NCBI RefSeq assembly: GCF_004295585.1
Contig: NZ_AP019400.1
Span: forward strand, 1,641,501-1,705,500
DNA length: 64,000 bases
Direction: 5' to 3'
From: Cohnella abietis
GTDB taxonomy: Bacteria; Bacillota; Bacilli; Paenibacillales; Paenibacillaceae
The translations under genes were made by a program, and so were the position numbers. How positions within the stretch are numbered: the stretch's first letter is position 1; each line of letters starts with the position of its first letter. Below the pieces are notes generated by a model, which saw only the letters and a program-made list of their open reading frames with translations, made no database searches and had not been told where the DNA came from. This document shows positions 14,138 through 48,036 of the stretch, piece after piece.

Positions 14138-17100
14138 ATGAGGTCAAGATTTTTAATACTCGTATTAATCATTAGTCTCTTTTATTCAACGGTTGCTAAT
14201 GCGGCAGCTGATATTCATGAAAATGGTTTTAATGCAGTGAATGATAACGGGAATGGAGTAAGAATTACGTCTGGCAACTATGTTTATGTGACTCCACCAA
14301 ATGCTGGAAGTGGAAGCATACCCGATGTCGGGGAAAGTGGGCTGATTGACTTCTCGGAGGGCGCATTGACTGATGGGGATTCAACAACATTTGCATCCTG
14401 GAAGGGGAACGGAGTAGGCAGCAATCAACAGACAATCGTATTCGATTTGTTGAAGGATTACCCGCTTGATCAAATTAAAATAATCAGTAACGCTTTAGAT
14501 GAATGGTATGGGATCAAGAACATTACGATTAAATACCGCGAGGAGTCTGTAAGTAATTACTACACACTACTCTCTCAGGATTGGTATGGAACTGTACACC
14601 CGCTGCCTGCAGAGGTAGTACGTGAAAACACGCTAACAGGCACGATGTCAGACCGGATGGCAAGGTATGTAATTGTACAAGTAACACGACTGCATAACTG
14701 GCAGTTCACTCCACTTATGGATGTTGAAATCTATCAGGGAACTGGACCAGTCGGAGTAGCTCCGGCGCCAGCATTATCTGCAAGTGATTTGCTGCAGGAA
14801 ATAAGCAAGCCATCTAGGCCTCTACCCAATTTGGATCAGATCATTGCCGGCAACTATGTATATGATAATCCCCCGAATGGAGGGAATGATCCCGACAAAG
14901 GGGCGAGTGGTCTGATTGCTTTCTCGGAGGGCGCATTGACTGATGGGGATTCATCAACATTTGCATCCTGGAGGGGGAACGGAGTAGGCGGCAATCAACA
15001 GACAATCGTATTCGATTTGTTGAGGGATTACCCGCTTGATCAAATTAAAATAATCAGTAACGCTTTAGACGAATGGTATGGGATCAAGAACATCACGATT
15101 AAATACCGCGAGGAGTCTGCAAGCAATTATTACACACTACTCTCTAAGGATTGGTATGGAACTGTGCACCCGCTACCAGCAGGAGTAGAGCGCCAAAACA
15201 CGCTAACTGCGCCTATGTCAGACAGTAAAGCGCGATTTATTATTGTACAGGTCACTCGGATGCATAATTGGCAATTTGCTGCACTTATGGATGTTGAGAT
15301 CTATAAGGGTATAGGAACGGTCGGAACAGCATCGACACCTGCGCTGACTTCAAGTGAAATGCTGCAAGAAATAAACAAGTCATCCAAAGCAATGCCTAAA
15401 GAAGGACAGATTATTACTGGTAATTACGTATATGGTAATCCACCGAATGAAGGGAACGTTCCAGATAACGGGAACAGCAACCTGATTGCCTTCTCGGATG
15501 GGGTGCTGACCGATGGGGAAGCATCGACAAGCGTAACCTGGAGGGGAGACGCTGGAGGTATAAATAATACAGGAACAATTGTTGTTGATTTGCTGAAGGA
15601 TTATCCGCTGAGTCAGATAAAGGTTTTTAGTAATGCTGGGTCCCAGTGGCATGGCGTTAAACAAATAACAGTTAAGTATCGTGCGGAAGCTGTAAACACC
15701 TATGCCATAATGTACAACAATGAATGGTACGGCACTCATTTTCCTGACCAGTCCGTTAGGGAAGCTAATCAAGAGCTGACTATTAATGCATCTGATAAGC
15801 TTGCAAGATTTATAATCATAGAGGTACATAAAGCGAATCCATGGCAGTCGTTACCCCTTTCGGATATCGAATTCTATCAAGGGAATGGAGCAGTGGGAAG
15901 TCATCCCGGAGCAGCCCTTACGGGTGAAGAGCTACTAGGAGAAACTGATCGCACGACACTCTTAGTGGATAAATATGGACAATATCTTTATCAGGAATGG
16001 CCTGGTAAGGTAACCTCAGATGAGCAACTGCAAAGTGAGGCTGAGATAGAGGCAGATCAATTATCAAAGGTAGCTCTAGATCTTGTGAAATATGATCAAT
16101 ATGGCGGTATGAAAAGTGAAGGTACTTATCAGGGGACAGGCTTCTTCCAATTGAAAAAAATAAATGGCATATGGTGGTTTCTGACCCCTGAGGGTCATAA
16201 GTTTTTCTTGAAGGGCGTTGATGTAACCCAATTAGATGAAGGAGGTTATACGACTCGCTACCTCAATCACGATGGAACTCCAAGAGATGTTTTTGAGGAG
16301 CTTCCTGACCCTGTTCTTTATGCAGATGCGTACTATAATCGCAGTAATAGCTGGGGGGATGGATTGGTAAGCTTCCTTAAAGCAAATGTTATGCGTAAAT
16401 ATGGCTCGGATTATAGAATGAAAAATGCAGATATTACGAAAAAACGACTCTTAGATTGGGGCTTTAATACGTTAAGTAAGTGGTCAAGAAATGTGGATCT
16501 CCAAATGCCCTATATCGATAATTTCGGTGTTCCTGCAGATACGATTAAAATATTATGGACACAAGACCCTTTCGATCCGAACTATCAACAAATACTGGAG
16601 GATAGCTTTGCTCAAAAACTAACACAATTAAAAGACGATCCCTACCTTATCGGTTATTTCTATGATAATGAAGCGGGATGGGATAATGAAGTGGTTGCGG
16701 AAGTGCTGAGAAGGGGAGTCGAGTCACCTGCAAAAGGTGCATTTGTAGCGTTCCTATCAGAAAAATATAATGGGGATATATCATTAGTAAATCTAAACTA
16801 TGGAACAAATGTAACGAGCTTTAATCAATTGGTTAATATAGCGATTGACATTGACAGTTTTACGGCTGAGCAGAAAGACAATATCGCCTCTGATCTCTCA
16901 GGTTATATTCAACTGGCTTCCAAAAATTATTATTCCAAAGTGAATCAGGCGATTAAGAGTATTGATACTAATCATTTATTCCTTGGATCTGCAGTAATAC
17001 CTGGATGGAGGACTTCTAAAGACTGGGATTTGGGAGGGCTAGAATATATAGATGCAATTTCAGTAGATGTATATTCAGATGATGCAAGTTATTTGGAAGG

Positions 17101-18745
17101 TTACAAAGCGGTTGATAAACCCTTATTAAATTTAGAATTTTCGTTCAACTATATGGACAGAGGACTAAGTTCTATTAATGGGGCTACTAGCTCCACCAGT
17201 ATTGCGAATAGAGGGGAGAAGTATCAAGCGTTTATTGAGGCGCAAGCGATCAATCCAACGTTTGTTGGTTTTGGATGGTTTTTATACTATGATCAACCTC
17301 TCACAGGAAGACCTGATTCTCAAATCGTGGTGTCAGGAGAGAATTTCAATCATGGTTTAGTGAATCAGCAGGATCAACCCTATACGGATATGGTCAATAT
17401 CATGAGAGTAGCGAACGCCCAAATAGAAGCTGTTCACAATTCAACAGTCATTTCGAATGCGGATTTGATTGGAATAACGGTAAACAAGGGTATATTAAGT
17501 CCGGAATTCATAGTGGATGTAACGGAGTATTCAGTTGATGTTAGCAACAGCGTCACTACACTGGACGTGACAGTCACCCGATCGGATAATCAAGCCTCCG
17601 TCATTGTGAACGGTAACCCAATAAGTGCAGGAACGCCTATTAAGATGAACAATCTGAATATTGGTGCCAATACGTTATCTATCTTAGTTGTCGCTAAGGA
17701 TGGAGCGCAGAAAACGTATACTATCACCGTGAATCGAGCTGACAATCCAATTGAAAGCAAGCCTACCGAGGGCAGTGGCGGCAACTCGATTGTTCAACCG
17801 AAAGCTGGTACTATCTCCCTGTCTGCAGGGGGTGCGGGCTCTGTCAGTCTATCTGATGACATCGTCATTAATATCCCTAAAGGGGCCTCGTCCCGAGCGA
17901 TGGATATTAGCATTCAGAAGCTTACTGATCCTAAGAGCTATACTACGGATGGAATGACTCTCGTAAGCTCCGTTTACGAGGTGATCAAGAGTATAGAGGG
18001 GAGCTTTGATCAGCCAGTCAGCATTAGTTTGCTGTTCGACAAGGCGGGGAAAGAAAATAAACGTTTAGTGATTTGCTACTATGATGAGGTTGCGAAGAAA
18101 TGGATTGAGGTGGGTGGTACCGTTAATGGCAATCGAATAACGGCTACAGTTAATCACTTCACGAAATTTGCTGTATTTGCGATGGATGCTAAATCCACTG
18201 TATTACCTACCTTTACAGACACGAAGGGACACTGGGCGGAAAGAAAAATAGCTGAAGCAACTGTACTAGCATTCATTGATGGATACTCCGACAATACATT
18301 TCGTCCGAACCAAGCTGTAACGCGAGCGGAGTTTGTATCCCTATTAGTACGTGTTCTACCTATGCAGGATGAAGCTACGCTTACGTTCAAGGATGCAAAC
18401 GAGATTCCATCGTGGGCAAGAAATAATATAGCTAAGGCAGTAAAAGCAGGTATTGTGAGCGGTTATGCAGACGGTACCTTCCAATCAAATCGCACGATTT
18501 CAAGAGCTGAAATGGCAGTCATGGTCACTCGTGCATTCGGATTTAAGAGTGACGCCGCACGACTGAAGGAAACACACTTTAGTGATGAGACTGCTTTACC
18601 TTCGTGGGCTCTTTCAGCGGCTCTGACCTTGAAGGATAATGGAATCATTCAAGGCCAGAGTGGTGATCGGTTTTCACCAAGCACCGCGCTCACTCGTGCG
18701 GAAGCAGTAATCGTTTTGTTGAATGCTTATGTGCTAATTGAATAG
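14138..18745 (+). CDS. Giant secreted SLH-anchored enzyme with GH50-like barrel and triplicated N-terminal module
   Basis: 1535 residues, start ATG with GGGAGG ten bases upstream. Order: signal peptide (1-22); three copies of a 180-190-residue beta-rich module (about 45-225, 230-410, 410-590), probably carbohydrate-binding; a barrel (about 660-1095) beginning GTGFFQLKKINGIWWF as in GH50 agarase-like proteins, with candidate catalytic Glu845 in YDNE and Glu1000 in LLNLEF; a cadherin-like beta-sandwich (about 1105-1205); a domain ending in HFTKFAVF; three SLH repeats (1359-1535) for binding the cell wall. The protein would sit on the cell surface and cut a polymer. The galactan or agar-like substrate is only a guess from GH50 resemblance. 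Modules 1 and 2 are nearly identical at DNA level. Confidence 0.8.
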   Translation: MRSRFLILVLIISLFYSTVANAAADIHENGFNAVNDNGNGVRITSGNYVYVTPPNAGSGSIPDVGESGLIDFSEGALTDGDSTTFASWKGNGVGSNQQTIVFDLLKDYPLDQIKIISNALDEWYGIKNITIKYREESVSNYYTLLSQDWYGTVHPLPAEVVRENTLTGTMSDRMARYVIVQVTRLHNWQFTPLMDVEIYQGTGPVGVAPAPALSASDLLQEISKPSRPLPNLDQIIAGNYVYDNPPNGGNDPDKGASGLIAFSEGALTDGDSSTFASWRGNGVGGNQQTIVFDLLRDYPLDQIKIISNALDEWYGIKNITIKYREESASNYYTLLSKDWYGTVHPLPAGVERQNTLTAPMSDSKARFIIVQVTRMHNWQFAALMDVEIYKGIGTVGTASTPALTSSEMLQEINKSSKAMPKEGQIITGNYVYGNPPNEGNVPDNGNSNLIAFSDGVLTDGEASTSVTWRGDAGGINNTGTIVVDLLKDYPLSQIKVFSNAGSQWHGVKQITVKYRAEAVNTYAIMYNNEWYGTHFPDQSVREANQELTINASDKLARFIIIEVHKANPWQSLPLSDIEFYQGNGAVGSHPGAALTGEELLGETDRTTLLVDKYGQYLYQEWPGKVTSDEQLQSEAEIEADQLSKVALDLVKYDQYGGMKSEGTYQGTGFFQLKKINGIWWFLTPEGHKFFLKGVDVTQLDEGGYTTRYLNHDGTPRDVFEELPDPVLYADAYYNRSNSWGDGLVSFLKANVMRKYGSDYRMKNADITKKRLLDWGFNTLSKWSRNVDLQMPYIDNFGVPADTIKILWTQDPFDPNYQQILEDSFAQKLTQLKDDPYLIGYFYDNEAGWDNEVVAEVLRRGVESPAKGAFVAFLSEKYNGDISLVNLNYGTNVTSFNQLVNIAIDIDSFTAEQKDNIASDLSGYIQLASKNYYSKVNQAIKSIDTNHLFLGSAVIPGWRTSKDWDLGGLEYIDAISVDVYSDDASYLEGYKAVDKPLLNLEFSFNYMDRGLSSINGATSSTSIANRGEKYQAFIEAQAINPTFVGFGWFLYYDQPLTGRPDSQIVVSGENFNHGLVNQQDQPYTDMVNIMRVANAQIEAVHNSTVISNADLIGITVNKGILSPEFIVDVTEYSVDVSNSVTTLDVTVTRSDNQASVIVNGNPISAGTPIKMNNLNIGANTLSILVVAKDGAQKTYTITVNRADNPIESKPTEGSGGNSIVQPKAGTISLSAGGAGSVSLSDDIVINIPKGASSRAMDISIQKLTDPKSYTTDGMTLVSSVYEVIKSIEGSFDQPVSISLLFDKAGKENKRLVICYYDEVAKKWIEVGGTVNGNRITATVNHFTKFAVFAMDAKSTVLPTFTDTKGHWAERKIAEATVLAFIDGYSDNTFRPNQAVTRAEFVSLLVRVLPMQDEATLTFKDANEIPSWARNNIAKAVKAGIVSGYADGTFQSNRTISRAEMAVMVTRAFGFKSDAARLKETHFSDETALPSWALSAALTLKDNGIIQGQSGDRFSPSTALTRAEAVIVLLNAYVLIE
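14351..15890 (+). repeat. Three tandem module repeats, about 570-bp period
   Basis: The segment starting at 14351 recurs at 14921 with only scattered changes over about 230 bases, and in a more diverged form near 15490. The period of 570 bases equals 190 codons. Copies 1 and 2 are much closer to each other than to copy 3, which suggests a recent duplication of an older pair. Confidence 0.85.
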
Positions 18746-23233: not shown

Positions 23234-23270
23234 TTGTAAGCGGTATCAAAAACAATCTAGATGCCGCTTA
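23234..23270 (+). promoter_or_regulatory. cre-like site and inverted partner before the beta-helix/dockerin gene
   Basis: TTGTAAGCGGTATCA (23234-23248) fits the Bacillus cre pattern WTGNAANCGNWNNCW at every fixed position. TAAGCGG (23237-23243) is inverted as CCGCTTA (23264-23270), so the two could form a paired operator. Carbon catabolite control by CcpA is the likely meaning. Confidence 0.55.
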
Positions 23271-23305: not shown

Positions 23306-26300
23306 ATGAAAATCAGATTCAAAGTATCAGCTTTTTATTATGTAGTGTGTTTTAGTTTCGCGGTATTAGCAGTTATTTTATTTAGTGCACCCACTTCTGC
23401 GTACGCAGCAAATTATTACATCAGTAATAATAACTGTAGCAATACGAATACTGGTAATTCCGGAACACTCACGGGTGGCAATGAAGGTCCATGGTGTGAT
23501 TTTACCCCTGTAAATACGAAGACATTTGCTGCAGGTGATGCGATTTACCTGGAACGGGGCAGCAGCTGGACGCAGGAATTCAAGCCAGCAGGCGGTTCGG
23601 GAACTTCAGCAAACTGGATTCTCGTTGATGCTTATGGAACCGGTGAGCGGCCTATCATCCGTGGGAATAATAATGCAACAGATAGGACGTTTACGCTTAG
23701 GAATGCTGATTATTGGGAAGTCCGCAATCTTGAGATTAGTCATGCAGGAATAGGACCGCAGTTTCTCTATTCAACGATTGGACATCAGGGCATTATTTTC
23801 AAAAACAATTATATTCATGACATGGTTGGAGGTCCAAATGCAATAGCGGTTCAGGTAAGAAGTGCGGATGTAGCCGCTCTGCCAACTGCTGGACAATGGC
23901 TAGTAAAGGATGTTGAAATTTCTGAAAATAAAATTGGTCCAACTTCATCCTATGGTGTAGTTGTTATGCATAATAATGCTGCGGCTCCTACCAATACCTT
24001 TCAAAATATCAAGTTGAATAATAATGATTTGCAAGACATATCAGCCAAAGCAATTGTATTTATGAATGTACAGGATTCTTATTGGACGGGAAACCGAATA
24101 GACCGTGCTGCAAATGTAAATCAAGCGGGTGGAACTACGGCGAGCTTCTTATTCGGCACAAAAAATATAACGATTGCCAACAATTTATTCTTGAATACGC
24201 CTGATACGGGATCGACGGATCAATCAGCGATTGATAATGAAGGGAAAAATGATGCAAACCATTTTAGAGGCAACTACTTTGCCAACAACTTTGGTGGTGC
24301 CTTGGAATGGCTCATGTGTAATTGCATAGTTCCAGACCGACTAGGTACAGACTTTAACAGCAACAACGAGGTGTTAGGAAATACCTTTGTAAATAACGGT
24401 CTCGGAGCATTATGGGCGACAAGTGATACAGGGCAATCTACGGGCACTATTACTGACAATTTGTTCTTTGAGAATGAATTCCTAAGAGACGAAAGCCGCT
24501 TCACAGCCTGGTCATCAATAGTCAATAATGTATTCGTTCCGTCACCTTCCAAAATCAATAATGCTGCCAACGATTTCGGAGCTGTTGGACATTCTGGAAA
24601 TTGGTCGCAGCAATTATACGATGGCACCAGCTATACGAATCTGAACTATGACTCTACCGAGAAATGGTACGGAACTACCGGCGGCTATATTTCGCAGTTT
24701 AATCTACGTGCTTCTGATACAGCAACAGACTGGATTTCCAGAGCTTGGACAGCGCCTTATAGTGGCATTGTAAGTCTACGAGGGCAAGCCTTCATAAATA
24801 GTGTCGGTGGAGACGGGGTATTGGTTCGCGTAACTCAGAATGGTCAAGTTATTTGGCCTGTTTCCAGCAATTCGCAGTCCATATCATCCAATGACTATAC
24901 AGGATATGCAACTAATTTGGATTCCATCTCTGTTGCTCAGAATGATGTTATCCGCTTTGAAGTAAATAATGGAGGAATTGATGGGGCAAATGATGCCGTT
25001 AGTTGGACGCCTACTATTGCTTATACTAGTGGAGGTCATAGTAGCGCTGATGAAGCATCAGTGCCTGGTCACATTACAGATCTTGCAGTTAGTTCAACTC
25101 AACATAATAAAGCTATATTGACTTGGACTGCATCAGGTAGCAACGGAGGCACAGGAACTGCTTCGCGTTATGACATTCGGTATTCAACTTCGCCAATTAC
25201 CGAACAGAACTGGTCCACTGCAACAAAAGTAGTAGAGAGACCATTCCCACAAATATCGGGGACATCACAATCTGTTACTATCCCCCTTTTGGATGCAAAT
25301 ACTCTTTATTATTTTGCTATAAAGACAATAAATGAAATACCTAATGAATCTTCGCTGTCCAATGTAACAAGCTCTTCAACGAATGCAGATATAACCGAAT
25401 TAGTGAATCCTGGGTTTGAAGAGGGAATTGTTGCGCCATGGGGTGCACAGGGTGCATCGATTGATGTGAGCAATATCTATGCGCACACGGGCAACTATTC
25501 GCTGTGGGCCTCTAATCGTTCTGATACATGGGCAGGGGCATTTCAGGATATTACAAGTTTATTAAATTCGAAGGGACAAGGAACCTATTCCTTCGGAGTG
25601 TGGGCCAAGTTTGCAAACCATTCTTCAGGTGGAATGGTAACGCTTAATATTACAGATAGTGCAGGCGCGCATTGGTACACGACTCCCATTACGATGATAA
25701 GTAGTGATGAGTTTACGAAAATTATAGGCATTAAAGATATTGCATGGACAGGTACGGTTACCCGCGCAAGTATATATTTTCAATCTGATAGCTCTATGGA
25801 AGATATTTACTTAGATGATTTCTTTCTCGATAGGGCAATAGAGACAACAAGTGCATCAACCTTAATGGGTGATCATTTGGTTAATAGTGATTCGGAATTT
25901 GAACTGACGTATGGTCTTGAAGGGATTAACGAGATTGGATTTGATCATATTTATGCCCAAGATCTAACGATCACTTTTGATTCCACCAAGTTAGAGTATA
26001 TCTCCGTCTCTTCATTAAAAGCAGGATTTACTGTTATTAGCGATGAGGAGATTGCACCTGGGAAAGTAAGGATCATCGCGGTTTCAAAAGGCTCCAGTAT
26101 AGCAGCCATTGGAGAATGGTTAAAGTTTGTTTTCAAAGCTAAAACCTTTGTTGTGCCAATGGATGTAACCGTTAATGTCAGCGCTATATTGATAGCCAAC
26201 ATTCAGGGTGATGAGCTCGAAATCGCTGGTTCTTCTCTAGCCTTTAAAATCCAAAACCGTGGGGACTTGAACGGAGATGGTCGCATTAGCATAGGGGATT

Positions 26301-26440
26301 TAGCAATTGCGGGCTCCTATTATGGAAAGACCTTCTCGGATCCGAACTGGAACAATATATACAAAAAAGCGGATATCAATCAAGACAATGTGATTGACAT
26401 TGCAGATCTGTCAGCCATTGCTCAGCTTATTCTGAATTAA
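23306..26440 (+). CDS. Secreted parallel beta-helix protein with FnIII, CBM, cohesin-like and dockerin domains
   Basis: 1044 residues; ATG 23306 is chosen because AAGGAG lies ten bases upstream and a clean signal peptide follows (cleaved near SAYA-ANYY, about residue 34). Order: right-handed beta-helix of polysaccharide-lyase type (about 35-450), a beta-sandwich (460-580), fibronectin III (585-690), a CBM4/9-like module starting NPGFEEG (about 700-845), a cohesin-like domain (851-985), and a type I dockerin (986-1044). The dockerin has two calcium loops, DLNGDGRISIGD and DINQDNVIDIAD, with Asp/Asn at positions 1, 3, 5 and 12. The next gene encodes a cohesin-SLH protein, a likely surface receptor. 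The substrate is unknown, perhaps pectin. Confidence 0.85.
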   Translation: MKIRFKVSAFYYVVCFSFAVLAVILFSAPTSAYAANYYISNNNCSNTNTGNSGTLTGGNEGPWCDFTPVNTKTFAAGDAIYLERGSSWTQEFKPAGGSGTSANWILVDAYGTGERPIIRGNNNATDRTFTLRNADYWEVRNLEISHAGIGPQFLYSTIGHQGIIFKNNYIHDMVGGPNAIAVQVRSADVAALPTAGQWLVKDVEISENKIGPTSSYGVVVMHNNAAAPTNTFQNIKLNNNDLQDISAKAIVFMNVQDSYWTGNRIDRAANVNQAGGTTASFLFGTKNITIANNLFLNTPDTGSTDQSAIDNEGKNDANHFRGNYFANNFGGALEWLMCNCIVPDRLGTDFNSNNEVLGNTFVNNGLGALWATSDTGQSTGTITDNLFFENEFLRDESRFTAWSSIVNNVFVPSPSKINNAANDFGAVGHSGNWSQQLYDGTSYTNLNYDSTEKWYGTTGGYISQFNLRASDTATDWISRAWTAPYSGIVSLRGQAFINSVGGDGVLVRVTQNGQVIWPVSSNSQSISSNDYTGYATNLDSISVAQNDVIRFEVNNGGIDGANDAVSWTPTIAYTSGGHSSADEASVPGHITDLAVSSTQHNKAILTWTASGSNGGTGTASRYDIRYSTSPITEQNWSTATKVVERPFPQISGTSQSVTIPLLDANTLYYFAIKTINEIPNESSLSNVTSSSTNADITELVNPGFEEGIVAPWGAQGASIDVSNIYAHTGNYSLWASNRSDTWAGAFQDITSLLNSKGQGTYSFGVWAKFANHSSGGMVTLNITDSAGAHWYTTPITMISSDEFTKIIGIKDIAWTGTVTRASIYFQSDSSMEDIYLDDFFLDRAIETTSASTLMGDHLVNSDSEFELTYGLEGINEIGFDHIYAQDLTITFDSTKLEYISVSSLKAGFTVISDEEIAPGKVRIIAVSKGSSIAAIGEWLKFVFKAKTFVVPMDVTVNVSAILIANIQGDELEIAGSSLAFKIQNRGDLNGDGRISIGDLAIAGSYYGKTFSDPNWNNIYKKADINQDNVIDIADLSAIAQLILN

Positions 26441-26505
26441 TTGCGGGCTAAAGGGAGAGGGGACAGGGATCTCTCTCTCTCTGCTAAATGAAAGGAAGAT
26501 ATTGA

Positions 26506-28110
26506 ATGAAAATAACGAGATGGATATCTCTATTTGCAGTAATTTCTTTACTTTTTACAACCCTCTTCTCCGTACATGTCTTCGCAGCTTCATCATCTTC
26601 TTACTCGTTGCAGCCCTCCTCTTCAACGATAATAGCGGGCGACGAGTTCACGATTACGATTAGTGGAAATAGGCTCATGGATCTGTTCGGATATGAAGTT
26701 AACGTATCTTATGATACTGGTCTCTTACAGTTTCAAGGAGCGGTAAATTCTATTGGAGGATTTGCTATTGAACCTATTGTGCAGCAAGGCAAAATTACAT
26801 TTGCGGGTACAAAAATTGGTCAAGCTCAAGGTGACAGTGGGACAGCTACATTATGTACATTGCGTTTTAAGGCAGTGGCTTCGGGTATAGCCGACATTAC
26901 GTTGACTTCAGTGAAAGAAATTAACAGCCAACTCATGTCTACTACACAGCTTTCTAATACGGCTACCAAAGTTACTGTTAACTCTGTTGAAATATCAACG
27001 CCCAATGATGGCGTGAGTGTCAGCGGTACAACTATTGTGAAGATACAAGATTCAATAGCCGTAGTGAATGTTGAAGCGAATCGAAGGTCAGTTTCTATTC
27101 CTATTCGCGAAATTGGAGAGTTACCGGTTAGTATTCGTACTGGCTCTCTGACAATTAACATAAAGGCGGAGTTGCTGAAAGCCTTGAAGAAGCAATTAGG
27201 CAATAGTGAAGGAGCCTTATTGGAGGTAATGTTCCCTCCAGTTGATAATATAAATGCTGTTGAAACTGTATTGAAGAAAAATAAGGCCAAGGTGAATATA
27301 GTCGGAGAAGTGTTTGACGTCAGTATCAGCCTTAAAGCGACTAATGGACACCAAGTAATCGCTGAACAAGTGGGGTCAAATGTAGAGCTAATATTCTCTT
27401 ATAAGGGCAATGTGCTCGATGCTAAGCTTCTAGGTATATATTATATCAACAGCGATCTTACTAATTGGGAATATATAGATTCCATTGTTAATGCTCAAAC
27501 AGAAACAGTTACTGCTACACTTACTCATCTAAGTCAATATGCGCTAGTGGAATATAATAAGTCTTTTAGTGATATACCTTCTACGCACTGGGCCTTCCGT
27601 ACAATACAGATTCTGGCTGCTAAGCATATTGTTAATGGTGTGACGATTGAAGAGTTCAATCCCAATAAAGCAACGACTAGAGCTGAGTTCACTTCACTGT
27701 TAGTAAGAGCACTTGATCTTAAGGCATCAAGCTTTCAAGGCTCATCGTTCGTCGATGTTACTTCAGATGCTTGGTATGCTAAAGATGTTGAAGCTGCGTA
27801 TACAACCGGTTTGGTCAATGGCGTATCCAAGGAGCGATTTATGCCGGACGCAGTGATGACGCGCGAGCAAATGGCCGCATCTATTTTAAGAGCATTTAAA
27901 TGGAAAAATAAACAAGAAGTACAGCCCGTGAATGCACGTGATACCTTTAAAGATGATAGCGGCATATCCAGCTGGGCTAGAGAGGACGTACATATGGCTC
28001 TCACTACTGGACTCATGAAGGGTAAACCGGGAAATGTATTTCAACCCAAATCCGCTACTTCTCGAGTAGAAGCGGCACAGGCGATTATGAATTTACTGAC
28101 AGTAAGGTGA
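26506..28110 (+). CDS. Cohesin-SLH cell-surface anchoring protein
   Basis: 534 residues, ATG after AAAGGAAG. Order: signal peptide (1-28); a cohesin domain (about 33-160) with the family's GDEFTITISG start, VSYDTGLLQFQGA and a closing LRFKAVASG strand; a 190-residue linker domain ending in LTHLSQYALVEYNK; and three SLH repeats (353-534: SFSDIPSTHWAFRTIQIL, SFVDVTSDAWYAKDVEAAY, FKDDSGISSWAREDVHMAL). The architecture recalls clostridial surface proteins that hold dockerin enzymes on the wall. It lies 65 bases after the dockerin gene with no strong terminator between, so the two are probably one operon. Confidence 0.85.
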   Translation: MKITRWISLFAVISLLFTTLFSVHVFAASSSSYSLQPSSSTIIAGDEFTITISGNRLMDLFGYEVNVSYDTGLLQFQGAVNSIGGFAIEPIVQQGKITFAGTKIGQAQGDSGTATLCTLRFKAVASGIADITLTSVKEINSQLMSTTQLSNTATKVTVNSVEISTPNDGVSVSGTTIVKIQDSIAVVNVEANRRSVSIPIREIGELPVSIRTGSLTINIKAELLKALKKQLGNSEGALLEVMFPPVDNINAVETVLKKNKAKVNIVGEVFDVSISLKATNGHQVIAEQVGSNVELIFSYKGNVLDAKLLGIYYINSDLTNWEYIDSIVNAQTETVTATLTHLSQYALVEYNKSFSDIPSTHWAFRTIQILAAKHIVNGVTIEEFNPNKATTRAEFTSLLVRALDLKASSFQGSSFVDVTSDAWYAKDVEAAYTTGLVNGVSKERFMPDAVMTREQMAASILRAFKWKNKQEVQPVNARDTFKDDSGISSWAREDVHMALTTGLMKGKPGNVFQPKSATSRVEAAQAIMNLLTVR

Positions 28111-28225
28111 TACAACAGATTTCCGTACTCTGAAGACTATTAATGTAAGGTAAGACCATTATGACGTCGAAATGGATATGATAATATTTTATTTGAATGC
28201 GCTACCAATAGAAGGAGGAAAGACA

Positions 28226-29758
28226 GTGAAGCTAAGCTTACAAGACTACAGAAGTAAATTGGAAGGCTGTTGGCTAGGGAAAAATATTGGAGGTACATTG
28301 GGTGCTCCGTTTGAATGCAAACGCGGTGTATTCGATGTGTCATTTTATACGCAAGAACTATATGGTGAACCTCTGCCGAATGATGATTTAGACTTACAGC
28401 TCATATGGTTAAATGCAGCTGAGAAATACGGAACTGCAGTAAACGCTCGTATACTTGCTGAATACTGGATATCTTATATCTCACCTAATATGGGTGAATA
28501 TGGTGCGGGGAAGAATAATCTGCGAGCAGGATTAGTACCTCCCTTATCTGGCTATTATCATAATCTTTACCGCGATAGCAATGGAGCGTTTATACGTTCA
28601 GAGATTTGGGCGTGTTTGGCACCAGGTCATCCGGAAATTGCTGCAAAATATGCCTATGAGGATGCAATTGTCGATCATAGTCATGAGGGTGTATATGCCG
28701 AGGTGTTCTGTGCTGCGATTGAGAGTGCGGCGTTCGTAGAAAGCGATACGTATCGTTTAATAGCAATAGGCTTATCTTATATCCCTGAGGAGTCTGGTGT
28801 TGCCAAGGCTGTGAAAACTGCAATTGAATCCTATCAATCAGGAGTTACCTGGCAGGAAGCAAGAATAAATGTATTAACAGCTGTCCCTGGAAGCTTCGGA
28901 TTGCTTAGTACTTCGGCAATTGATCCACAACAGGATGATGTACCCGTTGGACCGATCGGTTATGATGCGCCAAGCAATGTAGGCATCATGATCATTGGCT
29001 GGTTATACGGAGAAGGGGATTTCGAAAAAAGCATTTGCATTGCGACTAACTGTGGTGAAGATACAGACTGTACAGCGGCAACAATTGGCTCCATTCTCGG
29101 GATTATTCTTGGCAAAGAAGGGCTCCCATCGAAATGGTTAGATCCCATTGGAGATACAATTAAGACGATTACCCTAAATGTATGTGATCAGGGTACACGA
29201 ATCCCTACCACCGTTGGAGAGCTGACTGAGCGCGTACTCAGGCTTGCTCCTACATTCCTTGGTACAGAGTATTGTGATCTGCTTCATGCTGGAGAAGGCT
29301 ATCAAGTTGAGATGAACGAAGGGGATCAACTGTTTGATCATCCTGTGCGCATTAATGCATGGAAAAATAAAAGCTTCAAGGATACGTTATCCCTAAGCCC
29401 ATTTGGGGTTAAATACGATTTTTCCATATTTAATGCTTTCATAGATTATGGACAAGACCCCATAGTGAGTGCTGGGAAACCTCGTACATTCAAGTTAGTT
29501 ATCGAAAATAATCTGTTCATGCAACAGTTTATCCAGGTGAAATGGCATGTTCCAGCAGAATGGGAAGTAACCCCTGGAACCCATCTTAGCGTTCCTCTGG
29601 AGCATTATCATTGCAACATTGGAACGACCGAAATAGAGTTTACACTAACGGCTCATCAATTAAATCAACCGAGATACGATCTCTTAATCGAAATGACATC
29701 TGTAGGGCGTCCTACGAAAGGGATCGTTCCAATCGTACTATTGAATACTGGTAATTAA
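28226..29758 (+). CDS. ADP-ribosylglycohydrolase-family protein
   Basis: 510 residues; GTG 28226 chosen because GAAGGAGG ends seven bases before it. The N-terminus YRSKLEGCWLGKNIGGTLG, the Asp pair in LPNDDLDLQLIW, and CGEDTDCTAATIGSILG near 290 are the metal-binding blocks of the family, which removes ADP-ribose from proteins or acts on related substrates. The last 150 residues form a beta-rich extension (DLLHAGEGYQVEMNEGDQ onward), absent from the short DraG-type members. Such long members occur in glycan-use clusters and may act on sugars rather than ADP-ribose; that is inference. Confidence 0.8.
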   Translation: MKLSLQDYRSKLEGCWLGKNIGGTLGAPFECKRGVFDVSFYTQELYGEPLPNDDLDLQLIWLNAAEKYGTAVNARILAEYWISYISPNMGEYGAGKNNLRAGLVPPLSGYYHNLYRDSNGAFIRSEIWACLAPGHPEIAAKYAYEDAIVDHSHEGVYAEVFCAAIESAAFVESDTYRLIAIGLSYIPEESGVAKAVKTAIESYQSGVTWQEARINVLTAVPGSFGLLSTSAIDPQQDDVPVGPIGYDAPSNVGIMIIGWLYGEGDFEKSICIATNCGEDTDCTAATIGSILGIILGKEGLPSKWLDPIGDTIKTITLNVCDQGTRIPTTVGELTERVLRLAPTFLGTEYCDLLHAGEGYQVEMNEGDQLFDHPVRINAWKNKSFKDTLSLSPFGVKYDFSIFNAFIDYGQDPIVSAGKPRTFKLVIENNLFMQQFIQVKWHVPAEWEVTPGTHLSVPLEHYHCNIGTTEIEFTLTAHQLNQPRYDLLIEMTSVGRPTKGIVPIVLLNTGN

Positions 29759-44093: not shown

Positions 44094-44115
44094 ATAAAAA
44101 GGGAGGATGAATATT

Positions 44116-47100
44116 TTGAGAAAAAAGACTTTAATTATGATGGTAGTTGTTTTTAGTCTATTATTCGGTACTGCAACCGTCAGTGCGGGTCCAGAGTTCT
44201 TTATTACCTTAGGTTCAAACACGGAAAAAGGGGGACAATTGGGAACGAATCACTCCGGTAATCCTAAAGATTGGGATGCGCTGCATTCGCAATATAATGG
44301 CTCTATCGTTACATATCCAAGAATTGGAAATGCTTTGAATAGCAATATGACCTTCCTATGGACACGTGAGGAGGGGGACAATCAAGCATACAAAATGAAA
44401 ACATCCTTTGATATTAATCGGGATACCGCTGTTCCTGTTGTTCTAGAGGTTGGTTTCGATCAAGTGTACAGCCATACACAAGTTGCTTGGCCGGGTGGTT
44501 ATTGGGTATCGAATGACGTCTATTGGCAGAATCCACTTGATGCTTCCCCGAATGCTGCAGGAAGCTATACGTTAAACTCTGATGAGAAGAGCGTTATTGT
44601 CCCTGCGAATGTGAATAAGCTCTATATCCGGATTCGTGTGGCTGATACTGGAGCTGGGGGTTTCACACATATTACCAATGGAAGTATAAGCTTTACAGCT
44701 GTGGATTATTCAGACGAGGATGAGGCTAGTTCTCTACCCGAACGTAACGTAGTTACTGAAGGTGCTGACCCTACGGGAGTTGTAGATTCTACAAGCATTA
44801 TACAAGCGGCGATGGATCAGGGAGGATCGATATATTTCCCTTCAGGTATATATAAAATATCTAAAACCTTAGTGATCACAAAGCCATATACGGAGCTTAG
44901 AGGTGGAAGAGGCAGCATCATAAAAGTTGCAGCTAATACTCCTGTGACAGCTATTAGCAATACCTTGTCTAAAGGAGTGTGGAACTTACATAACATTGTG
45001 ATCAGAGATTTAACCATTCTGAATGACTTAAGTAACTCAGTACCTGGCGATAATCTACAATTCACACAAGGAATTTCATTCCAGGGAGTTAGAGATAGTC
45101 ACATTGAAAATGTTGTTGTTAAAAACTTTCAACATGACAATATTTATATTGGATATAGCAAAAATATTGTAGTAGAAAGTGTTCAGACAGTCGGTGCTAG
45201 ACATGGAATTACGGTTAATGGGCATTTTGATGGAGGACGTTATGGAGTTTGGAACGTTCAAATCAGCAACGCTCATACGACAGATACTTTTGATACGGGA
45301 ATTGTTATCGGATTTTTCAGTCACTATGTAAGCGTATCTAATTCGATTATAGAAAACTCTTGGGCACATGGAATCGATATTTTTAACTCTTCACATATTG
45401 TTATTGACGGCAACACGATCAAGAATTGGAATGTACCCCATGGACCCAATAATGCACAAATCGGGCAAAGTGTCGGAGTATTCGTACACCCAGATTGGGG
45501 TATATCCACATTCATCCCGACCGAGGATGTTGTTATTACTGGGAATACGGTTATCTATGATAAACAACTTCCTGTAGGCATTACGCCAATAGGGATCGAG
45601 GTAACAGGAAATGTAGACACGGCATCAATTACTGGTAATCAGATAATTGGAGCATATCGCGGCTTTTATTTGCGTGAGCAGCCTTATGACATCTTCTATA
45701 CCAATCGTCCAGATCAAAGGGTTGATGAGAATGCATCTATGGCGCCACGGAATGTTGTATTCAGCAGTAATGTGATCCGGGGACAAAAGAGCAGTGTGTT
45801 GAAGGTTGAATCAGCCATAGTGATGCCGGCACTGATTGCAAATAATATTTTTACGTCTAGTAGCACAGGTGCTGTTGAAATTAATGTTCCACTGAGCAGT
45901 AAGGTCGCCCTACAAGGTAATAGCTTCTATGGAGGGGGGCTAGATGAGATGAACCTTCCTACTGGAGTGAATTGGAATAATAATTTGATTTATGCGCCGC
46001 TTACACTGGAGCTTACAGCAGCACGAACAACAATTGTAAATCAATTATTGAGCTTTACGGCAACAGCTATCGGGGAAGCGGGGCGTACGTTAACCTATAG
46101 TGCAACGGGATTACCTCAAGGAGCGAGCTTGGATTCAGCTACAGGCGTGTTTACTTGGACGCCTACTGAAGGAGATCAAGGTCAAATATATCCGGTTATT
46201 TTCTTTGTATCGGATGGAACAAATACAGTATCGAAAACAGTGACAATCACGGTTAATAGCGATATTGCTCCTGTAGATGCAACAATAGCAGCAAGTATTA
46301 CAGAGCCGACCAACAATGACGTCATTGTAACGATCAGCTATCCAACTGATGCAGCTACTAAAGAATACAAAGTAGGTACAAGTGGTGCTTGGACAGCATA
46401 CACAGGACCGATCGCCATTTCTACCAATGATACGGTTTATACAAGAGGAACGAGTGCCTTAGGAAGTATGTCCAATATTACTAACCTTGTTGTAAGTAAT
46501 ATAGATAAGATAGCGCCTGTAAGTATCGCATCTGTAGGTCCTGATGCAACTATGGGTAGCAACGGAAAATATATTTCAGATGTAACGATAACTATAGCTG
46601 CAAGTGACGAGTTATCAGGCATAGTGAGAACAGAATACCGAATCAACAATGGACCATGGGCAATCTACACCGGCTCCATTCCTGCCTATGGTGATGGAAT
46701 TTATACCTTTGAATATCGCAGTGTGGATCATGCCGGTAATGTAGAGACCATTAAGTCAATGGATTTTGAGGTTTCGAATAATAGACAGTCAACAGAACCA
46801 AGTACGGGTCCGATAACAACATCAACAGTAATCGTTGAACCAACGAGCACACCTAAATCAACGGGTGAACCGATTAAAGTTAAATCAGAAGTAACCTTCG
46901 ATAAGACAACACATATAGCTACTTCCACCATTAATGCTGCGGATTGGGCTAAAGCTCAGCTAGAGGTAAAGTCTGATTCTACTGGGAAAACAACAATTCG
47001 TATTGAAGTAGATGCAGTTCCAGGTGCAAAAGAATATGTGCAGATACTGCCTTCCGAGGCGATCTCTAGCAACAATAAATCAGCTTCGATTGAAGTTGTA

Positions 47101-48036
47101 ACCTCTTTAGCGTCGATGATTATTCCTAGTAATATGTTTCAAGAATTGCCATCAGGGGACGTTGGAATCCATATTTCTCGAGTGGATTCTAATACTCTAG
47201 ATGATAAAACAAAGAAACAAGTTGGAGAATATCCTGTTTTTGAATTGAACATTCAAGCTGGAGGTAAAACCATACCTTGGAACAATCCCAATGCTCCGGT
47301 AACAGTGAGTGTACCTTATACACCGACTGCTAAGGAGCTTAAAAACCCTGAGCATATCGTCATTTGGTACATTGATGGCGAAGGGGAAATTCATGCAGTT
47401 CCAAACGGGAAATATGATCCTCTTACTGGGCATGTAAAATTTTCAACAACACACTTTAGTAAATATGCTATTTCTTATGTGGAAAAAACGTTTAATGATA
47501 TCGTTACGGTAAACTGGGCAAAGAAACAAATCGAGCTGCTGGCGTCAAAAGGAATTGTTAATGGCGCTTCGGATAGTGAATTTATTCCGTTTCAAGCAGT
47601 TACTCGCGCTGATTTTCTAGTTCTGTTAGTGAGAACTCTTGAGCTGCAAGGAGCACTAGGTGATCCGTTTGCAGATGTGTCTGAGGACTCTTATTATAGT
47701 GAAGCACTGCGGATTGCCAGAAGCCTTGGTGTAGCAACTGGTGGTGGTGATAACCGCTTCGAGCCTCTAGCCCCGATAACAAGGGAAGATATTATGGTAC
47801 TGACAGACCGAGCATTAAAGGCAGTGGGTAAACAACGGGCAACTGATTCAAGTGGAGATGTTCTAGGTGGGTTTAATGATACTGCGGACATTTCTGGATA
47901 CGCGAAGGGTAGTGTTTCTGCTCTAATCCAAATGGGACTCATTCAAGGCACTGGTCAAGCTGTTCGTCCGAAGGAAACAGCTAACCGTGCGCAAACGGCA
48001 GTATTGATGTACAATCTCTATCAATATATCAAGTAG
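44116..48036 (+). CDS. Secreted SLH-anchored parallel beta-helix protein (pectate-lyase-like)
   Basis: 1306 residues. TTG 44116 is chosen because GGGAGGA lies eight bases upstream; ATG 44107 would overlap that site. Signal peptide (1-24); an N-terminal beta-sandwich (about 25-200); a Pectate_lyase_3-type beta-helix (about 208-620), starting ERNVVTEGADPTGVVDSTS; a putative Ig domain (630-715: LTYSATGLPQGASLDSATG); two further beta-sandwich repeats (to about 890) with EYRINNGPWAIYTG; a Thr/Ser linker; a pre-SLH domain ending in HFSKYAISYV; three SLH repeats (about 1125-1306). Displayed on the wall, it could cut or bind an acidic or neutral polysaccharide. The third SLH repeat is weaker than the first two. 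Confidence 0.82.
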   Translation: MRKKTLIMMVVVFSLLFGTATVSAGPEFFITLGSNTEKGGQLGTNHSGNPKDWDALHSQYNGSIVTYPRIGNALNSNMTFLWTREEGDNQAYKMKTSFDINRDTAVPVVLEVGFDQVYSHTQVAWPGGYWVSNDVYWQNPLDASPNAAGSYTLNSDEKSVIVPANVNKLYIRIRVADTGAGGFTHITNGSISFTAVDYSDEDEASSLPERNVVTEGADPTGVVDSTSIIQAAMDQGGSIYFPSGIYKISKTLVITKPYTELRGGRGSIIKVAANTPVTAISNTLSKGVWNLHNIVIRDLTILNDLSNSVPGDNLQFTQGISFQGVRDSHIENVVVKNFQHDNIYIGYSKNIVVESVQTVGARHGITVNGHFDGGRYGVWNVQISNAHTTDTFDTGIVIGFFSHYVSVSNSIIENSWAHGIDIFNSSHIVIDGNTIKNWNVPHGPNNAQIGQSVGVFVHPDWGISTFIPTEDVVITGNTVIYDKQLPVGITPIGIEVTGNVDTASITGNQIIGAYRGFYLREQPYDIFYTNRPDQRVDENASMAPRNVVFSSNVIRGQKSSVLKVESAIVMPALIANNIFTSSSTGAVEINVPLSSKVALQGNSFYGGGLDEMNLPTGVNWNNNLIYAPLTLELTAARTTIVNQLLSFTATAIGEAGRTLTYSATGLPQGASLDSATGVFTWTPTEGDQGQIYPVIFFVSDGTNTVSKTVTITVNSDIAPVDATIAASITEPTNNDVIVTISYPTDAATKEYKVGTSGAWTAYTGPIAISTNDTVYTRGTSALGSMSNITNLVVSNIDKIAPVSIASVGPDATMGSNGKYISDVTITIAASDELSGIVRTEYRINNGPWAIYTGSIPAYGDGIYTFEYRSVDHAGNVETIKSMDFEVSNNRQSTEPSTGPITTSTVIVEPTSTPKSTGEPIKVKSEVTFDKTTHIATSTINAADWAKAQLEVKSDSTGKTTIRIEVDAVPGAKEYVQILPSEAISSNNKSASIEVVTSLASMIIPSNMFQELPSGDVGIHISRVDSNTLDDKTKKQVGEYPVFELNIQAGGKTIPWNNPNAPVTVSVPYTPTAKELKNPEHIVIWYIDGEGEIHAVPNGKYDPLTGHVKFSTTHFSKYAISYVEKTFNDIVTVNWAKKQIELLASKGIVNGASDSEFIPFQAVTRADFLVLLVRTLELQGALGDPFADVSEDSYYSEALRIARSLGVATGGGDNRFEPLAPITREDIMVLTDRALKAVGKQRATDSSGDVLGGFNDTADISGYAKGSVSALIQMGLIQGTGQAVRPKETANRAQTAVLMYNLYQYIK

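Follow-up and report, generated by a model that had tools for sequence, protein, structure and literature searches.

A cohesin-dockerin protein gene followed by a cohesin-SLH receptor gene in Cohnella abietis and related Paenibacillaceae

Modular organization of the two genes

The window analysed here is a stretch of 64,000 nucleotides of the Cohnella abietis genome (contig NZ_AP019400.1, positions 1,641,501 to 1,705,500), in which two adjacent genes of the forward strand encode proteins with cohesin and dockerin modules (Table 1). Gene 1, with an open reading frame (ORF) of 1059 amino acids, has a signal peptide, an N-terminal region, fn3, CBM_4_9, a cohesin and a dockerin in this order, and the mechanical ORF start at 23261 was passed over in favour of the ATG at 23306, as the latter is preceded by an AAGGAG motif. 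Gene 2 begins 65 bp past gene 1 with its own ribosome-binding site, AAAGGAAG, and encodes a signal peptide, one cohesin, a linker without credible Pfam match and three SLH repeats. A preliminary description of this DNA had recognized these modules and a non-clostridial host; the host is a member of Paenibacillaceae and the modules were recovered as described, the gene 1 cohesin standing just before a dockerin with two full calcium loops and the next gene joining one cohesin to three SLH repeats.

Table 1. Features of the gene pair, with positions in the window
Feature	Position	Strand	Basis
Gene 1, encoding a secreted, carbohydrate-active protein that ends in cohesin and dockerin	23306..26440	+	ORF, ribosome-binding site, Pfam
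N-terminal region of gene 1, about 550 residues, perhaps GH136-like beta-helix, no Pfam family	23408..25060	+	weak PDB matches
fn3 domain of gene 1	25073..25345	+	PF00041, 26.0 bits (cut-off 25)
CBM_4_9 carbohydrate-binding domain of gene 1	25400..25789	+	PF02018, 49.2 bits
Enzyme-borne cohesin of gene 1	25853..26254	+	PF00963, 33.6 bits (cut-off 24.1); hold-out profile, 94.8 bits
Dockerin of gene 1, immediately behind the cohesin	26255..26437	+	PF00404, 30.0 bits (cut-off 22.9); hold-out profile, 80.3 bits
Calcium loop 1, DLNGDGRISIGD, residues 1002-1013 of the 1059-aa ORF	26264..26299	+	sequence
Calcium loop 2, DINQDNVIDIAD, residues 1038-1049 of the 1059-aa ORF	26372..26407	+	sequence
Gene 2, cohesin-SLH wall receptor	26506..28110	+	ORF, ribosome-binding site
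Receptor cohesin of gene 2, of a different subfamily from the enzyme-borne type	26596..26976	+	PF00963, 30.9 bits; hold-out profile, 115.2 bits; tree
Three SLH repeats of gene 2 (wall anchor)	27565..28104	+	PF00395, 113.6 bits, 3 stretches

The dockerin of gene 1 scores above the cut-off for dockerin type I (PF00404) and has two calcium-loop repeats, both of which are intact as read from the sequence. The profile searches proposed as a check placed both cohesins and the dockerin above their curated cut-offs, the cohesin of gene 2 only in a more sensitive search. By the definitions in the accessible text of a report on Paenibacillus guangzhouensis (PMC11557425), gene 1 encodes a monovalent adaptor, as a single cohesin and one dockerin stand in one protein, and gene 2 an SLH-anchoring scaffoldin, as at least one cohesin is combined with SLH domains. 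The N-terminal region of gene 1 has weak matches to 7v6m (E 1.4e-5) and to the lacto-N-biosidase 6kqs (E 2.5e-4) over its first 90 residues; it is perhaps a GH136-like beta-helix, and the catalytic family is uncertain.

Hold-out profiles were built from 160 enzyme-borne cohesins, 54 receptor cohesins and 158 dockerins, with no sequence from the C. abietis genome. With the receptor-cohesin profile, the scores were 115.2 bits (E 6.6e-35) for the gene 2 cohesin and 15.2 bits for the gene 1 cohesin; with the enzyme-borne profile, they were 34.4 and 94.8 bits, respectively. These scores rule out chance or misread domains. On scanning the window in six frames with the same profiles, the best stretch outside the two genes reached only 6.7 bits (E 0.23).

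A tree of 239 cohesins contains a split, with support of 0.98, that places all the 51 single-cohesin receptors and the 12 cohesins of two-cohesin receptors on one side, along with just 5 of the 163 enzyme-borne cohesins. The enzyme-borne and the receptor cohesins are two subfamilies sorted by their position in the gene pair. The conserved motifs are A-Q-D and A-S-x-G in the enzyme-borne cohesins (161 sequences) and Y-x-Y-E and A-x-T-K-x-G in the receptor cohesins; these stretches presumably lie near the dockerin-binding face known from solved complexes. The specificity of dockerins is decided at their recognition positions. Of 163 distinct tails of the cohesin-dockerin (Coh-Doc) type, 139 have two readable loops; in 131 of these the first recognition pair is I-G or V-G, and the second site varies. 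The window dockerin has I-G and I-A, and dockerins without a cohesin of their own differ at these positions, with mostly P-A or S-A.

Recurrence of the gene pair in genome, genus and family

At E 0.001, 11 cohesin and 5 dockerin matches were obtained in the single 7.06-Mb contig of the C. abietis genome, and each of the five dockerins sits behind a cohesin of its own chain. A cohesin-SLH gene directly follows three of these dockerin genes, those of the window and of the loci L014 (7380-8408) and L016 (10365-11999), and a fourth (L014, 10568-13531) lies two genes past one of these receptors. With such a neighbour at three genes out of five, the pairing is beyond chance. No sixth dockerin was found in the genome at E 0.001, a search that degenerate dockerins can escape, as in other genomes. 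The notion of one enzyme with one receptor was therefore too narrow, since the genome has five Coh-Doc proteins and three receptors of this type, each with one cohesin. Two more SLH proteins, at L017 (5003-11290) and L018 (6867-9035), have weak cohesin matches of 29.4 and 24.5 bits, and no dockerin gene was found alongside them.

The survey of related genomes proposed with the preliminary description showed that the pair recurs. Across 37 genomes of the genus, a cohesin match was present in 22 and a dockerin match in 23. A cohesin stands in the same ORF as the dockerin in 26 of the 54 matches, and for 32 of the 54 a different ORF on that strand encodes one no more than 8 kb away to either side; in 19 the neighbouring cohesin begins 144-247 bp downstream, i.e., in the next gene. 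With the profiles built here, a receptor-type gene was identified directly downstream of 16 of the 26 Coh-Doc genes. Other dockerin matches of about 23-35 bits, in G002, G008, G011, G014 and other genomes of the genus, lie in long ORFs (several near 1260 or 1640 amino acids) with no cohesin within 8 kb. In addition, named records were searched with Coh-Doc tails, and the best 80 of 235 relatives yielded 73 loci with titles of Paenibacillus, Cohnella phaseoli or Bacillus sp. A cohesin-SLH gene was present at 26 of these loci, directly behind the Coh-Doc gene at 20 of them, and tandem arrays of Coh-Doc genes share one receptor gene at several loci (L120, L122, L130). As part of the genus regions were picked for nearness of the modules (along with eight without a near cohesin), the 54 dockerin matches of the genus and the 73 named loci are the less biased counts.

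Taken over the genus and the named loci, there are 53 neighbouring pairs with gaps of -19 to 374 bp, L078 and L092 being the same locus counted twice; L059, where no dockerin was found, and L062, whose frames overlap, were left out despite having a receptor gene. The dockerin protein has its own cohesin in 42 pairs and none in 11. The receptor ORF carries SLH in 50 pairs, and of the remaining three, L048 has SLH in an overlapping next ORF, L056 runs into a contig end and none was found for L050. This recurrence in C. abietis, the genus and the named loci rules out a single odd locus, and the paired receptor, which had been singled out as the striking feature, is shared by many Cohnella and Paenibacillus loci; its component set is also in print (PMC11557425). 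The Pfam scan left the cohesin unlisted in 5 and the dockerin in 13 of 35 Cohnella Coh-Doc proteins, and the cohesin in 4 of 31 receptors; such modules were assigned with the profiles built in this analysis.

Three layouts were distinguished in the genus: an enzyme with cohesin, FIVAR in some cases, and dockerin next to a one-cohesin receptor; an enzyme with a dockerin next to a two-cohesin receptor; and large proteins with a dockerin near the N-terminus next to a one-cohesin receptor. The second layout was observed at L067, L069, L070, L071, L073 and L076, where the dockerin is C-terminal and the protein has no cohesin of its own, and at L069 one receptor stands behind three consecutive dockerin genes. 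The large proteins (L066, L072, L074, L075 and L077) have 1160-1631 amino acids with a dockerin at residues 132-217 and no cohesin, and the next gene encodes a one-cohesin SLH protein of 622-630 amino acids. In 6 pairs the dockerin-like modules have no or only a partial calcium loop by the loop pattern. At L055, L058, L060, L061, L063 and L065, dockerin-like modules follow FIVAR-type linkers with loops apparently lost and the cohesin-SLH neighbour kept, and these modules are perhaps calcium-independent dockerins.

Among 59 genomes of the family, at E 1e-8, Coh-Doc profile matches were found in 30 (15 of the 19 genera), and 24 of these 30, from 13 of the genera, also matched the receptor-cohesin profile, which had no match outside them; weak matches may cross over at this threshold because the two profiles share cohesin similarity. 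On restricting the search to strong matches, 12 genomes had Coh-Doc at E < 1e-40 and all 12 also had a receptor at E < 1e-40. The balance between the two can be uneven, with 51 Coh-Doc matches vs 1 strong receptor match in G044 and 33 vs 2 in G074, counts in which split matches may be included. When a phylum sample of 299 genomes was searched with the receptor profile, C. abietis alone matched at E 1e-20, a result that says little about the family because few of its genomes are in that sample.

As for the cargo, the families listed (25 of 70) for the 35 Cohnella Coh-Doc proteins include heparinase II/III, rhamnogalacturonan lyase 11, GH43, GH59 and an esterase, and no cellulase is among them. 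FIVAR is present in 19 of the 35 proteins and separates the cohesin from the dockerin in some tails. No multi-cohesin scaffoldin was found in the C. abietis genome, in which an ORF has at most two cohesin matches and the one ORF with two also has its own dockerin. The label of a minimal cellulosome, under which the pair was first described, was therefore dropped, as no multi-cohesin scaffoldin was found and the cargo, as far as its families are listed, is not cellulase.

Probable docking and possible chaining on the cell surface

The pair probably lets the cell wear the gene 1 enzyme on its surface, as a two-gene display unit without scaffoldin in which the dockerin of gene 1 would bind the cohesin of gene 2. 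The gene 1 protein would be secreted, its C-terminal dockerin would bind the single cohesin of the gene 2 protein together with calcium, and the three SLH repeats would fix this cohesin in the wall, so that the enzyme is displayed on the cell. Two observations make the docking step likely. In 11 of the 53 pairs the receptor gene stands beside a dockerin protein devoid of its own cohesin, the neighbour being the only partner at such a locus, and the genome search at E 0.001 showed five dockerins alone, one of which must be the ligand of the receptor if it binds any known dockerin of the cell. The best PDB sequence match of the window dockerin is chain B of 2y3n and the second match of the receptor profile is chain A, the two being partners in a single solved complex of type II. 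The dockerin might instead bind only the enzyme-borne cohesins of other Coh-Doc proteins to form soluble chains or rings, the cohesin-SLH protein being a separate one with another ligand. Every dockerin found in C. abietis does have a cohesin in the same chain, and arrays of Coh-Doc genes without a nearby receptor exist, but the 11 pairs without an own cohesin and the presence of receptors in each of the 12 genomes of the family that match Coh-Doc strongly speak against this alternative, which we consider improbable.

AlphaFold2 was applied to linked chains of the relative L092. Chain 1 (own cohesin, dockerin, intergenic read-through and receptor cohesin) gave a predicted local distance difference test (pLDDT) of 88.0 and a predicted template modelling (pTM) score of 0.59, and chain 2 (dockerin and receptor cohesin) gave 88.6 and 0.58. 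In the alignment of chain 1, 10 of the 19 receptor-only rows were split over both cohesins; chain 2, without the own cohesin, had much the same pTM. In both models the single domains are reliable and their arrangement is not. The best single-domain match of the first L092 model was 2vo8, a cohesin from a GH33 enzyme of Clostridium perfringens (root mean square deviation 1.4, template modelling score 0.89 of target), and the L092 receptor cohesin, compared over residues 109-239 only, matched 2vo8 (Z 13.8) and many cellulosomal cohesins at Z 13-14. The dockerin could also fold back onto the cohesin of its own chain and cap it. Both modules share one chain and the AlphaFold2 model did not decide on this, but a linker only a few residues long would hardly let the dockerin reach the binding face of that cohesin, and self-capping appears very unlikely.

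A mirror-tree comparison in its first version (35 pairs) gave partial correlations of 0.54 between dockerin and receptor and 0.25 between dockerin and own cohesin, and plain distances gave 0.45 vs 0.38. The dockerin-receptor pairing was favoured in 75.5% of the subsamples, and in 92.3% in a non-redundant set of 17, a weak signal that only hints at this pairing. Several observations count against docking on the neighbouring receptor. The co-evolution edge of the dockerin with the receptor is slight, with the order reversed in at least one jackknife, and neither linked-chain run gave a confident arrangement. The gene 2 cohesin is absent from the ordinary filtered Pfam hmmscan output even at E 10. 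Besides, no receptor lies directly downstream for 10 of the 26 Coh-Doc genes in the genus, and 47 of the 73 named Coh-Doc loci have none inside the flanks examined.

The cohesin of gene 1, being of the second kind, may receive a dockerin from a second Coh-Doc protein made by the cell, and enzymes might thereby add in a row onto one anchor, a step that we put forward tentatively. Each enzyme would bring a plug (the dockerin) and a socket (the cohesin), and one small SLH-anchored socket would seed the chain on the wall; such scaffoldin-free surface arrays are conceivable rather than expected. If they are formed, genomes like G044 and G074 would carry mixed, growing chains of enzymes instead of cellulosomes. 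The own cohesin may alternatively be a structural buttress of the dockerin without any partner, for which the X modules of cellulosomal X-dockerins are a precedent, so that enzymes dock singly on receptors and no chains arise. The linkers between cohesin and dockerin, very short with 1-9 residues in 129 of the 137 tails of the named loci, suit a buttress. The A-Q-D and A-S-x-G motifs kept across the 161 enzyme-borne cohesins, presumably near the dockerin-binding face, argue against it, and the FIVAR placed between cohesin and dockerin in other tails does not fit it; we regard the buttress as a serious contender that falls short of being favoured. It alters only the chaining step of the proposed explanation. 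Both the docking on the receptor and the head-to-tail chaining envisaged in the preliminary description are plausible.

Related systems and genomic surroundings

The solved fold that comes nearest to the modelled cohesins is that of 2vo8 from the glycoside hydrolases of C. perfringens, whose cohesins and FIVAR-dockerin are represented by PDB 2vo8, 2jh2 and 2w1n. These secreted enzymes are joined without a scaffoldin, as is proposed for the present ones, and likewise have FIVAR beside the dockerin, but we know of no cohesin-SLH receptor gene beside them. In Archaeoglobus fulgidus, a Coh-Doc protein is found beside a cohesin protein, for which no SLH anchor is known to us. This pair is likewise non-cellulosomal, and according to the accessible text of its report the Coh and Doc modules of AfuCoh76 and AfuDoc75 bind (PMC9705933), but it is archaeal and its structure 2xdh ranks below the nearest folds of the L092 models. 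The SLH-anchoring scaffoldins of Acetivibrio, as outlined in the accessible text of PMC11557425, also use a cohesin and SLH repeats to hold dockerin proteins on the wall, and type II cohesins are among the best PDB matches of the receptor profile; the anchor there, however, holds the enzymes by way of a primary scaffoldin with several cohesins, and no such scaffoldin was found in C. abietis. The complex of P. curdlanolyticus, with an SLH protein that has no cohesin in the accessible text of PMC6823336, is a different system.

The closest likeness within Paenibacillaceae is P. guangzhouensis, for which 28 monovalent adaptors, many with a GH domain, and five SLH-anchoring scaffoldins as possible docking sites were reported in 2024 (PMC11557425). 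It has one dockerin-cohesin pair per protein along with SLH-anchoring cohesin proteins, and the component set is therefore already in print for one species. That report is a count in a single genome, and its accessible text does not mention gene pairing and favours also other ideas, such as the scavenging of foreign dockerin proteins (PMC11557425). What is new relative to it is the conserved next-gene pairing, the split of the cohesins into subfamilies and the spread over the family. No treatment of pairing between dockerin and cohesin-SLH genes was found among the cohesin-dockerin papers listed, as judged by titles and the beginnings of abstracts and with subscription papers outside the search. 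If the proposed docking is right, the family would have a second, simpler solution to the problem that cellulosomes solve, and as the neighbouring gene would name the likely partner of each dockerin, specificity becomes testable pair by pair. Such work would show whether enzymes stack on the cell without a scaffoldin, and the pairs could serve protein engineering as small natural plugs and sockets.

Genes for the use of sugars are abundant around the pair in the window, with GH127, GH2, GH92 and transporter parts. The gene at 14138-18745 combines SLH repeats with F5/8 type C in one chain and that at 44107-48036 SLH repeats with a rhamnogalacturonase-like beta-helix; as these two join SLH to carbohydrate-related domains, direct SLH anchoring coexists with the cohesin-dockerin route. 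A pattern scan for promoters and terminators returned no more matches than in shuffled sequence and has no bearing on whether the pair, described preliminarily as one operon, forms such a unit. On the same strand, 61 bp past the receptor gene, lies a gene of the ADP-ribosylglycohydrolase family (28172-29758, 137.9 bits).

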